Both the position numbers and the translations under genes were made by a program. A stretch of DNA of 33,513 nucleotides, from the NCBI GenBank assembly GCA_009780985.1, contig WQYZ01000026.1, forward strand, positions 1-33,513. Direction: 5' to 3'. The notes under the pieces were generated by a model. It was not told the origin of the DNA and searched no databases. It saw only the letters and a program-made list of their open reading frames with translations. This document shows positions 25,838-33,513 of this stretch, in pieces (the stretch's first letter is position 1; each line of letters begins with the position of its first letter). The stretch is from Oscillospiraceae bacterium (GTDB lineage Bacteria; Bacillota; Clostridia; Oscillospirales; WRJC01).

Positions 25838-27052
25838 CTAACCTTTCATAATATTAGGATTTTTGTTTGTGTTTATACTGTTTAGAGCTTTTTTTAACCG
25901 GTTGAACGCCTCTATAAGCACAACTAACGGGCAGGCGATATTTATCCGTATAAAACCTTTGCCCTCGCTTCCGAACATAGCGCCCTCGTCAACCCATACT
26001 CCGGCTTTATCGACGATTACCCGTTCGAGTTCAGGATCCGACAAATCGTATGCGTTCAAGTCCAGCCATATCAAGTATGTTTCCTCAAGTTCAGACATCC
26101 GTAATTTGGGAAGATTGACGCTTATAAAATCTTTTACATATTTATAGTTTTTTTCTATGTATTTTATTAGTTCGTCAACCCACTCGCCGCCGTTTTCATA
26201 TGCCGCCTGACATGAAACAAGCCCCATAGCGTTGAGTTGGCTATAACCTGTTTTAACTGTTTCCTTTTTGAATTTTTTTCTGAGATTACTGTCCGCAATA
26301 AATATATTGGCGATTTGAAGTCCGGCAAGGTTGAATGTTTTACTCGGCGATGTACATATAATGGAATTTTGTAAGAACTGCTCACTTATCGCTCCGAATA
26401 CAGTATGTTTATATCCGTTGTATACGAAATCGCAATGTATTTCGTCGGACACCACAATTACGCTATGTTTCAAACATATATCGCCCATTTTTGTAAGTTC
26501 TTCTTTTGACCATACTCTGCCGACCGGATTATGCGGACTGCATAAAATAAACAGTCTTACGTTGTTTTTAGTTATTTTATTTTCAAAATCACCAAAATCA
26601 ATAGCATATCTGCCATCAATATACATCAGCGGATTTGTAACAGTCTGCCGCCCGTTTGCCTCAATAGATTCCTTAAACGGGTAATATACGGGAGTCTGTA
26701 TCAGAACTCCGTCGCCGGTTTCCGTAAACGCTTTAATTGTGTTGCATATGGCATAGACTACTCCCGGAACTTTTACCAGCCATTCCGGTTTTATTTCGAA
26801 GTCAAACTTTTCGGCAAACCATTTTCGCACGGTTTTAAAATAATCCCCGTCTTTTTTTGTTTCTGAATATCCGAATACAGAATGTTTAGCAGATTTTATA
26901 AGCGTTTCTGTAACGCACGGCGCCGTTCTAAAATCCATATCGGCTACCCATAGGGGAATTAATCCTTCCGGTTTGCCGCGTTCGGCGGCAAAATCATATT
27001 TCAGTGAATTTGTGTTTTTTCGTTCTATAATTTCATCAAAATTATATTTCAT
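25838..27052 (-). CDS. patB: MalY/PatB-family PLP-dependent aminotransferase (cystathionine beta-lyase)
   Basis: Fold type I PLP enzyme of 404 residues. In this family PatB and MalY cleave cystathionine or cysteine (C-S beta-lyase), and E. coli MalY also represses the maltose regulator. Visible landmarks are the opening IPLWVADMDF, SPHNPVGRVW (N175), VSDEIHCDF (D203) and the PLP lysine K238 in SPSKTFNLAGLQ. The C-terminal IRINIACP contains the carboxylate-binding arginine. The start was placed at the ATG that overlaps the stop of the upstream sigma-RCC1 gene as ATGA. An in-frame extension of 28 residues into that gene lacks similarity and is rejected. The overlap implies translational coupling. 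A terminator follows the gene. Confidence 0.9.
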   Translation of the reverse strand: MKYNFDEIIERKNTNSLKYDFAAERGKPEGLIPLWVADMDFRTAPCVTETLIKSAKHSVFGYSETKKDGDYFKTVRKWFAEKFDFEIKPEWLVKVPGVVYAICNTIKAFTETGDGVLIQTPVYYPFKESIEANGRQTVTNPLMYIDGRYAIDFGDFENKITKNNVRLFILCSPHNPVGRVWSKEELTKMGDICLKHSVIVVSDEIHCDFVYNGYKHTVFGAISEQFLQNSIICTSPSKTFNLAGLQIANIFIADSNLRKKFKKETVKTGYSQLNAMGLVSCQAAYENGGEWVDELIKYIEKNYKYVKDFISVNLPKLRMSELEETYLIWLDLNAYDLSDPELERVIVDKAGVWVDEGAMFGSEGKGFIRINIACPLVVLIEAFNRLKKALNSINTNKNPNIMKG

Positions 27053-28707
27053 AATGACATAATCCTCTGCGGAACACATTGTTTGTTCTCGGAAAAATCG
27101 CCAAGTTGTCCCTCGTCGTTGCTGCCCCACGCCCATATGCCGCCGTCGCCTGTAACCGCCATAGCGTGCGAACCACCGGCAGTTATTTCAACGACAGTTT
27201 GGGGCAAACAAACTTTTACAGGTTCATTTTTTACATGATCTTCGAGCGTAAATTCAGAATTCGCATCGTATGATCCGCAGCCGAGTTCACCATTTTCATT
27301 TAATCCCCACGCCCAAACAGTGCCGTCTTTTTTCAACGCCAATGTAAAACTGCCGCCTGCCGAAATAACGCTGACTTCCGACAGGTTTCGGACTTTCACG
27401 GGAACGTCCAAGATTTCGTTGCATATATTTACAGACCCGAGCTGTTTTTGCGTATTATATCCGCACGCCCACACAGTTCCGTCCTCGCATAACATGACGT
27501 CGTGCATACCGCCCGCAGAAATAGCGGTGATTTTTCCGGTAATTTTTATTTGAACAGGTGTATCGGCTTCATAGACAATCGGGAAGCTGAACCTTGAATC
27601 GCCGTAGCCGCCCCATCTCCACACTGTCCCGTCCTCCGCCAACGCCAGTGAACGAAAATACCCCGCAGAAATTTGTGTAATCTTTTTCAAGCCCGGTATT
27701 TCGGACGGAAATTCGCTGTCCTCTATTTTACGGTTTTCGGCATTTCTCCGGCTGCTTCCCAACTGCCCATACCAGTTCTTTCCCCACGACCATACTGACC
27801 CGTCTTTTTTCAACGCTAATGCGTGAGCCACCCCCGCAGAAATCGAAACGACATCGCTGAGACTTTTTACCTGTTCCGGTATTGTAACATATTTTTCGCG
27901 TGAGCCGGTTCCAAGCTGAGAAAAACAATTATCGCCCCAACCCCAAACCGTGCCGTCGACAAGCAGTGCGAACGAATAATTATGTCCTGATGCCGCCGCT
28001 AACGACTTGACATTTTTCAAACCTGCAACAGCCGCGAATCTCGTTTTATCGCCCCAAGTCATCACTGTTCCGTCTTCTTTCATAAATAAAGCATGTTTAT
28101 AGCCTGATACTATCATATTTTTCACCCTTTCTGTAAATTCTTTACTCGATTTTTGTGTTTTGAATGTGTCACTCATATTATCGACCAGCTCCTTTTGTAG
28201 TTTTTTTCTTGCGGAGAACAAACGATTTTTAACTGTGCTTATAGGCAAATCCAAAAAGTCGCTGATTTCAGCCGTGGAGTATTCACTGATGTAGAACAAA
28301 ACCGTTATCGTCCGTTCTTTTTCAGGCAATGCCGCGACCGAATTGAAAAGCTGCCTTTTTAGTTCATTGCGTTCAGCAATTTCCGACGGGCTGTAATCTT
28401 GACTTTGTATTTCAAGGACATCGTCCAATGGAAGGACCGGCAATCTGCTTTTGCGGTAAAAATGCTCGCACTGCGAAAATACAATCTTCCGAAACCATGA
28501 GGGAAACGCTTCAGGGGACTGTAATGTTTTCAATTTAAAATATGCCTGAACGAACGCTTCCTGCGCCGCATCCTCCGCATAGTGATAATCTTTTAACACG
28601 GAATAAGCGTAGCCTATCGCCATATTCCTGAATTTATCAACCAAAATTTCAAACGCATTAATATTGCCGCTCTGCGCTTCGATTACCAGTTCATTGTTGC
28701 TTTTCAT
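27049..28707 (-). CDS. ECF-type sigma factor fused to a seven-repeat RCC1 propeller
   Basis: 552-residue fusion. Residues about 10-88 are sigma-70 region 2 (GNINAFEILVDKFRNMAIG, HYAEDAAQEAFVQAY). Residues about 127-175 are region 4 with a helix-turn-helix (YSTAEISDFLDLPISTVKNR). After a charged linker (176-195), seven RCC1-type repeats follow, each centred on DGTVWxWG with most ending in a QLG-like turn, near 201-219, 238-258, 290-308, 346-364, 395-414, 447-466 and 507-526. Seven is the number needed to close an RCC1 propeller. No membrane segment or signal is present, so the propeller should be cytoplasmic. The second ATG was chosen because AAAGG lies 7 bases before it. No anti-sigma gene is adjacent. 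Domain calls are firm; the propeller's role as sensor or regulator is inference. Confidence 0.9.
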   Translation of the reverse strand: MKSNNELVIEAQSGNINAFEILVDKFRNMAIGYAYSVLKDYHYAEDAAQEAFVQAYFKLKTLQSPEAFPSWFRKIVFSQCEHFYRKSRLPVLPLDDVLEIQSQDYSPSEIAERNELKRQLFNSVAALPEKERTITVLFYISEYSTAEISDFLDLPISTVKNRLFSARKKLQKELVDNMSDTFKTQKSSKEFTERVKNMIVSGYKHALFMKEDGTVMTWGDKTRFAAVAGLKNVKSLAAASGHNYSFALLVDGTVWGWGDNCFSQLGTGSREKYVTIPEQVKSLSDVVSISAGVAHALALKKDGSVWSWGKNWYGQLGSSRRNAENRKIEDSEFPSEIPGLKKITQISAGYFRSLALAEDGTVWRWGGYGDSRFSFPIVYEADTPVQIKITGKITAISAGGMHDVMLCEDGTVWACGYNTQKQLGSVNICNEILDVPVKVRNLSEVSVISAGGSFTLALKKDGTVWAWGLNENGELGCGSYDANSEFTLEDHVKNEPVKVCLPQTVVEITAGGSHAMAVTGDGGIWAWGSNDEGQLGDFSENKQCVPQRIMSL

Positions 28708-28742
28708 TTTTATGCCTTTCATATATTCATCATATGTCTCTA

Positions 28743-28771
28743 ATTATAAAGAACCTGTCTATACAAAAAAG
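28743..28771 (-). promoter_or_regulatory. Putative promoter of the sigma-RCC1 gene
   Basis: On the minus strand a TATAAT (plus-strand 28743-28748) lies 36 bases before the start codon, with a weak T-rich -35 (CTTTTT, 17 bases upstream). Half-sites GAACCT (28751-28756) and AGGTTT (28770-28775) form an imperfect dyad around this region. No typical ECF (GGAAC...GTC) promoter was recognised, so autoregulation is not evident. Confidence 0.35.
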
Positions 28772-32187: not shown

Positions 32188-32597
32188 CAGATTTCGACAT
32201 TTTTCCATAAAAATTTGTAATTTACATTATGATAATGTGGAAAAGTCTGGTTTTACCAAGTATTTTTTAATAAAAAAATCTCTGAAAATTTACTTTTTCA
32301 GTATAATTTCAGGGCGAAATTTCTATTTTTGGGAATAATTTTGAGGGTAAATATATTTTTTATTTCAAGGTACTTCAATGCTTAAAATATTTCAGGAAAT
32401 ATCCATTTTAAGTACTAATAACATTGCTTCAGCATATGAATGAAAAGAATAAATAGTATAATTATTCATAAAAAGAATGTATAATAAAAACAGTCCAGAG
32501 TTGAGAAACAACGCGGAATATTTATTGTAGTATTTCATTACTTTTTCAAGAAAAGTTTCAAAATACAGATAACCATTTTATGAAAGGCGCATTAAAC
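32188..32597. other. AT-rich intergenic region between divergent genes
   Basis: No gene was recognised in this stretch of about 410 bases. It contains a 15-base palindrome (listed separately) and a foldable segment (32370-32416), where GTACTT pairs with AAGTAC and CTTAAAA with TTTTAAG in competing arrangements. A possible -10 TATAAT (32480-32485) for the lipoprotein downstream has no good -35. Confidence 0.5.
32224..32238. promoter_or_regulatory. Perfect palindrome, possible operator
   Basis: ACATTAT-G-ATAATGT is a perfect 7-base dyad, 37 bases upstream of the -35 box of the transglutaminase promoter. It is a candidate binding site for a regulator of either divergent gene. Confidence 0.35.
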
Positions 32598-33513
32598 ATG
32601 ATAAAAAGAATAATTTTCTTTATTTCAATTTCGATAATTTTAATTTGTTTTAGTTCATGCAAAAGCGAAGAGAATGTAAAAATTGATAATACTGCAGAAA
32701 TTACATCAATCGCAACAACGATACAGACGGAAACAACGCCGTCGGAAACGGAGAAAAGCACGATGGAAGAAACACCGAAAATAATCGAACATAACCCTGT
32801 ATTTCCATCAAAAGAACAGGCAGCTCCCGCATATGCGCTCCCCGCTCTCACGGGCGAATACTTCACGCAAATGCCTATAATCAGCGCGGCTCTGCGCGAG
32901 AAAGGCTATTTCGGAGGCGAGGGCGGCCAATGGGAAGTATCGATAGCCTGCGACCCTGTAGAGGGCAGCCTAATATTCTGCGGAACTGATGTGGGCGGAA
33001 TTTACCGCAGCGTTGACGGCGGCGAAATGTGGGAGCCGGCAAATTCGGGAATGCACTCCAGAGGATGCTGCACTTTCGCTATCGACCCCAACAATATAAA
33101 CAACGTACTTGCCGTTGGCGCGAATTCCGGCTACAGCGACTCAAACGGAATATACTTATCGACTGACAGAGGCGAAACATGGACGCAGGCGTATCCAGCA
33201 GCCATATGCGGCTACCGCGATTTCAGGGAGCAAATTGCGTTCGACCCGTCCAGCTATGACGCAGAAAAAGGGGGAAGCATGATTGCATATTGGAGTCCCG
33301 GCGTAGATAAAGATAACTATCAGGCATGGGGTAACAGGGATATACTCCCTTATTTATATAAATCGGTTGATGGCGGTAAATCGTGGAAAATCGTGAATAA
33401 AACAGTCGGCTGGGATTCGATTGTAAAAGTACACCCGACAAAAGGGTATGTATATATAGCCAATGACAGCGGTTTTTATGTGAGTTATAACGAGGGTGCG
33501 GACTTTGAGAAAG
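32598..33513 (+). CDS. Lipoprotein with Asp-box/BNR repeats (sialidase or GH74-like propeller), 3' end cut by window
   Basis: Open frame that runs to the window edge without a stop (305 codons visible). The signal ends in the lipobox FSSC with the modified cysteine at 21. A Thr/Glu-rich linker (about 35-60) follows, then a region with repeated Asp-boxes: GGIYRSVDGGEMWEPANSG, GIYLSTDRGETWTQ, YKSVDGGKSWKIV and the start of a fourth. The TDVGGIYRSVDGG pattern and spacing recall GH74 xyloglucanases and other BNR-propeller hydrolases. Catalytic residues cannot be confirmed because the protein is cut. The start was chosen because AAAGG lies about 10 bases before it; an in-frame ATG 18 bases upstream is less likely. 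Confidence 0.8.
   Translation, partial: MIKRIIFFISISIILICFSSCKSEENVKIDNTAEITSIATTIQTETTPSETEKSTMEETPKIIEHNPVFPSKEQAAPAYALPALTGEYFTQMPIISAALREKGYFGGEGGQWEVSIACDPVEGSLIFCGTDVGGIYRSVDGGEMWEPANSGMHSRGCCTFAIDPNNINNVLAVGANSGYSDSNGIYLSTDRGETWTQAYPAAICGYRDFREQIAFDPSSYDAEKGGSMIAYWSPGVDKDNYQAWGNRDILPYLYKSVDGGKSWKIVNKTVGWDSIVKVHPTKGYVYIANDSGFYVSYNEGADFEK

Follow-up and report, generated by a model that had tools for sequence, protein, structure and literature searches.

The question raised by this locus is how an ECF sigma factor is controlled when an RCC1 propeller forms its C-terminal half. The gene lies on a contig of an Oscillospiraceae bacterium (WQYZ01000026.1, positions 1 to 33,513), and this whole stretch of 33,513 nucleotides is referred to here as the window. 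The features of the locus are given in Table 1.

The sigma-RCC1 gene and its product

The open reading frame at 27049-28722 (minus strand) encodes 557 residues from its first in-frame ATG (28722) and has no internal stops. GAAAGG is found just 5' of the second ATG (28705-28707), where it overlaps the first, and the second ATG is therefore the likelier start. The Pfam matches to Sigma70_r2, Sigma70_r4_2, RCC1 (repeats, 4e-60) and WD40_RLD (the full RCC1-like domain, 2e-81) all exceed the cut-off, as does NCBIfam TIGR02937 (sigma70-ECF superfamily). By Pfam and NCBIfam the protein thus has sigma2 and sigma4 without sigma1 or sigma3, the domain content of an ECF sigma factor; no named ECF subgroup was present among the NCBIfam matches listed. 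Seven copies of the motif DG-x-[VI]-x-x-[WC]-G follow, at residues 217, 256, 307, 364, 414, 466 and 526. The initial annotation had described just this order, ie ECF regions 2 and 4 followed by seven RCC1 repeats with no membrane segment, and it is borne out by the Pfam domains, the motifs and the hydropathy profile. The maximum over 19 residues is 1.15, which indicates that there is no transmembrane segment, and a cytosolic protein is the best explanation.

Table 1. Positions of features in the window. Duplex energies are in kcal/mol.
Feature	Coordinates	Strand	Remarks
MalY/PatB-like PLP enzyme gene	25838..27052	-	Pfam Aminotran_1_2 4e-41; start ATG at 27052
Sigma-RCC1 fusion gene	27049..28707	-	552 aa from preferred ATG; open frame
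Seven-bladed RCC1 propeller (predicted)	27052..28116	-	Residues 203-557; Pfam, AlphaFold2, Foldseek
Candidate internal start codon M203	28114..28116	-	Follows GAAAGGGTG; at propeller boundary
Linker	28117..28185	-	Residues 180-202; predicted helix ahead of propeller
Second Shine-Dalgarno-like sequence, GAAAGGGTG	28123..28131	-	Duplex energy -8.5
Candidate internal start codon M183	28174..28176	-	Follows AAAAGGAG
Shine-Dalgarno-like sequence, AAAAGGAG	28189..28196	-	Inside ORF; duplex energy -9.9
Sigma region 4	28198..28344	-	Residues 127-175; Pfam PF08281 Sigma70_r4_2, 1.9e-11
Sigma region 2	28444..28644	-	Residues 27-93 (557 numbering); Pfam PF04542 Sigma70_r2, 5.2e-9
GGTTCTTTATAnnTAGAGAC block	28736..28755	-	Common to upstream region of APH-tailed paralogue

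The seven repeats had been judged sufficient to close a propeller, and a structure prediction agrees. The AlphaFold2 model, whose input alignment comprised just three RCC1 relatives and no sigma relative, has 28 strands, four to each of seven blades, which extend from residue 204 to the C-terminal end (198-552 in the 552-residue numbering), with pLDDT mostly 80-95. Foldseek matched the model to UVR8 (E 3e-36, target TM-score 0.81-0.83) and further to the propellers of RPGR, HERC2 and RCC1. Motifs, model and structural matches all point to a seven-repeat propeller, and in the prediction it is closed. The sigma half has a pLDDT below 60 nearly throughout, and the model gives no view of how the propeller packs on it; a helix in the linker (186-195, 552 numbering) falls in a region of low confidence. 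The RCC1-type fold is common to BLIP-II, UVR8 and the window protein (Foldseek), but only the window propeller is fused to a sigma factor. The equivalents of the UVR8 tryptophan motifs in the window protein are Y, H, V, Y, G, G and G, and a UVR8-type UV-B photoreceptor was rejected because none of the seven GWRHT-equivalent positions is Trp. Ran exchange was also rejected, since bacteria are not known to have Ran.

A paralogue with an unrelated tail

The same genome encodes a paralogue on another contig (C131, L047:820-2472). Over its first 203 residues it matches the window protein at 82% identity, and the DNA identity of 83% over 582 bases ends at the joint between sigma and tail. Beyond the joint the paralogue has a phosphotransferase of the APH type (Pfam 1.5e-11), whose sequence contains an HxDxxxxN motif. 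The dN/dS ratio of the two sigma parts is about 0.10-0.17, ie purifying selection, and their region 4.2 recognition segments are identical. Selection therefore maintains both sigmas, and we infer that the RCC1- and APH-tailed forms read similar promoters.

The block GGTTCTTTATAnnTAGAGAC, upstream of both genes, has no other exact match in the genome and may be a duplication relic or a promoter. It was rejected as a regulon motif because it is exact only at the two paralogues, the next match being inside a glycogen-synthase-like coding sequence. An Rfam search of the window gave no match.

The fusion has been found in one genome only, and that assembly consists of 387 contigs with 6% contamination. 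At 4.9 Mb it is larger than two genomes of the same genus (2.0-2.6 Mb), and a composite bin is possible. The gene might be a fusion that is recent and without function, or else an artefact of wrong binning or assembly of the contig, but we consider this reading very improbable: the seven repeats are complete in an open frame, the sigma part is under purifying selection, the paralogue on its own contig has the sigma part and the upstream block in common with the window gene, and the G+C content is similar.

The sigma clade and the search for further fusions

The search for the same architecture across Clostridia suggested in the initial annotation was carried out on samples, and the window gene was the sole case. 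No second single-ORF sigma-RCC1 fusion was found in samples totalling about 1,500 genomes (59 relatives, 394 from the order, 391 from the class, 398 from the phylum and, by sigma profile, 300 from another class of the phylum) or among plasmids, phages, genome contigs and viral contigs; each taxon was searched as a sample, and one order-level profile in practice modelled the RCC1 part alone. Five stand-alone RCC1 loci had no sigma gene beside them as a split pair. Elsewhere in the order, the RCC1 proteins that were examined appear to be secreted or membrane-anchored, unlike the window protein. The initial annotation named no established ECF group with RCC1, and none was found in the literature searched, although such a group may be described outside it. 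There was equally no sign in the genomes sampled of a group defined by RCC1; the sigma-RCC1 protein is one fusion in one genome, within a clade whose tails are exchangeable.

That clade was identified from the sigma domain. In the phylum-wide sample the nearest other relatives belong to a single family (f129, genomes of 5-7.6 Mb) and carry a DUF1835 tail where the window protein has RCC1. Sampling of the class to which that family belongs gave 22 DUF1835-tailed genes, at 1e-66, followed by a wide gap to the next matches at 1e-39. A tree of 112 sigma domains, obtained by a quick search without bootstrap, places the RCC1-, APH- and DUF1835-tailed sigmas in one clade (SH-aLRT 99), and the tail is therefore exchangeable. 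The earlier proposal that the propeller is a built-in regulator fits these data, and the paralogue with its APH tail and the relatives with DUF1835 make it stronger. Among more distant relatives of the sigma, the tails are of TPR/DUF3108-like, glyoxalase, pentapeptide or membrane-spanning type.

Several other extended ECFs were observed. In the window's genome, an ECF-type sigma on contig C150 (L222:497-1762, minus strand) carries an FtsZ C-terminal domain (Pfam FtsZ_C 1.3e-16), with a strong Shine-Dalgarno sequence and an ATG near the joint. Seven more (L215-L221; contigs C71, C76, C94, C142, C37, C110 and C21) have tails of about 350-400 residues which match no recognised family, and all seven have an in-frame Met two residues past the sigma domain. 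Two genomes elsewhere in the phylum have a sigma joined to a glyoxalase/VOC domain (L214:303-1259, plus strand) and to pentapeptide repeats (L213:969-1955, minus strand).

Gene neighbourhood

The stop codon of the sigma-RCC1 gene overlaps the start of the MalY/PatB-like gene as ATGA, so that the two are likely to form a two-gene operon and are probably translated together. Divergent genes for a DUF1295 protein and an MscS-type channel lie upstream, and no anti-sigma-like gene adjoins the sigma-RCC1 gene in the window, as had been noted initially. The MalY/PatB-like protein is a possible partner of the propeller. Towards the end of the window (32580-33512, plus strand) a gene for a secreted repeat protein begins and is cut by the contig end; judged by eye, its repeats are sortilin/BNR-like.

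The propeller could instead serve as a scaffold or targeting module by which the sigma reaches a partner such as the MalY/PatB-like enzyme, without itself controlling sigma activity. RCC1 propellers are mostly protein-binding platforms; BLIP-II, a bacterial propeller of the RCC1 fold, binds an enzyme, and E. coli MalY binds and inhibits the activator MalT. The ATGA overlap also fits such a role. However, the gene downstream of the APH-tailed paralogue is a convergent ORF and not MalY-like, and the DUF1835-tailed relatives have no MalY-like neighbour either. On balance we regard a scaffold without regulation as improbable.

Start signals at the joint

A missed stop at the domain junction, ie two genes read as one, had been raised in the initial annotation. 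The ORF is uninterrupted, and that possibility falls in its strict form; a softer form survives, in that the Shine-Dalgarno-like sequences and in-frame ATGs at the joint mean that the propeller may also be made alone. AAAAGGAG and GAAAGGGTG precede M183 and M203, respectively, the latter being residue 1 of the propeller. By comparison, the 181 internal ATGs of the window have a median duplex energy of -2.6 and only 8% of them reach -6. The APH-tailed paralogue has AAGGAG and an ATG at the same boundary (duplex energy -8.2) and lacks an ATG equivalent to M183. In the DUF1835-tailed genes the first residue of the domain is encoded by ATG, TTG or GTG in 22 out of 22, preceded by GAAGGAGG or GAAGGGGG, and the Glu before this position is always GAA, whereas elsewhere GAA and GAG are about equally used.

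The joint was scored by its rank against other 30-codon stretches within each same gene. The rank gave p 0.002 for the window gene, p 0.003 for the APH-tailed paralogue, p<0.05 for the VOC-tailed gene and for all 22 DUF1835-tailed genes, and p<0.1 for 20 of 26 TPR/DUF3108-like ones, values which overstate independence because the genes compared are related. A control group with membrane-spanning tails had the signal in 1 of 13 (median p 0.63). Such signals are also present in most extended ECFs that were examined from the genome of the window. The Lys-Glu codons at the joint are AAG-first in 25 of 27 extended ECFs, compared to 1 of 11 plain ECFs (Fisher p 1e-6, with the same reservation as to relatedness). 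All 12 plain relatives examined have a separate regulator gene of transmembrane or zinc-finger type, usually anti-sigma-like, which starts -19 to +91 nt from the sigma stop. Together with the joint signals this suggests that the tail fills the slot of the coupled regulator and that initiation there is used, or once was. On this sequence and codon evidence the propeller may be made separately from an internal start, besides the fusion, though the Shine-Dalgarno sequence could be a relic.

If the propeller acted only in cis there would be no free form, and the Shine-Dalgarno sequence and ATG would be a relic of the fusion or a pause site that lets the sigma fold ahead of the tail. The frame is open through the joint in all the extended ECFs compared, and regulation in cis is the documented mode for ECF41, ECF42 and ECF238 (PMC8999054). 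We nevertheless think this unlikely, since the DUF1835 position toggles between ATG, TTG and GTG and yet is invariably a start codon, the Glu before it is fixed as GAA, and AAG-first Lys-Glu codons are enriched in the extended ECFs. The retention of a start codon argues against a relic or a pause site, neither of which needs one.

Comparison with known systems

The replacement of anti-sigma factors by extensions is established for ECF41, ECF42 and ECF238 and has been proposed for the WD40 extension of ECF57 (PMC8999054). Compared by tail type, ECF57 is similar in having a C-terminal extension of the beta-propeller type with proposed control by protein interaction, and it has a conserved cysteine pair (PMC8999054); its extension is WD40-like, whereas that of the window protein is RCC1 by Pfam. 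The soluble extensions of ECF42 (TPR) and ECF41 (SnoaL) likewise stand in for an anti-sigma factor, but they are other domains and each is conserved within its group, whereas in the window clade the tail is swapped inside one clade. Fusion to a former regulator, often a membrane-anchored anti-sigma, is a feature in common with ECF243, ECF48, ECF52 and ECF53. Those are activated by proteolysis of the membrane-anchored tail, while the window protein, from its hydropathy, has no transmembrane helix in the tail. Production of a full protein and a C-terminal product from one ORF by an internal start is described for Cas11b of Cascade (PMC11899642) and for two-polypeptide endolysins (PMC9430671); the window case concerns a sigma factor and a candidate start. 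No report of an internal-start product of a sigma factor was found in the literature searched, nor of tail exchange within a clade or of joint start signals in ECFs. The extended ECF is therefore a known kind, and the RCC1 extension, the within-clade tail exchange and the joint start signals are new elements relative to that literature.

A proposed sigma/regulator switch

The explanation we favour, and consider reasonably probable, is a one-protein sigma/regulator switch derived from a fused downstream regulator gene, which probably still makes the free propeller. That gene would have been joined in frame to the sigma gene, and the C-terminal propeller would set sigma activity from the place where plain relatives encode a separate, translationally coupled regulator. 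Since the joint has retained what marks a gene start, the tail has been exchangeable (RCC1, APH kinase or DUF1835), and translation from the internal start probably continues to yield it in free form. In the most likely mode of operation, binding of a protein or ligand by the propeller decides whether sigma2 and sigma4 engage RNA polymerase; propeller made in free form would vie for that partner or affect the sigma in trans. With the same -35 recognition segment in the RCC1- and APH-tailed paralogues, two inputs would drive overlapping promoters. Regulation of the sigma by its tail, internal initiation, a partner and a regulon are all things that we infer.

More tentatively, and with somewhat less confidence than an even balance would warrant, the soluble C-terminally extended ECFs of the phylum may be a general two-product device, consisting of the fusion and a free regulator, for which an internal ribosome-binding site would be conserved at the joint. 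The joint would then be a cassette slot which captures unrelated sensor domains (RCC1, APH, DUF1835, VOC, pentapeptide, TPR/DUF3108-like).

The control of ECF sigmas that lack an anti-sigma partner is a question in many groups. The two paralogues, with near-identical sigmas and unrelated tails in one genome, are a natural domain-swap experiment on the role of the tail, which their regulons would show. The start signals at the joint point to a testable route by which a sigma/regulator gene pair may become a one-component regulator while keeping its free regulator.
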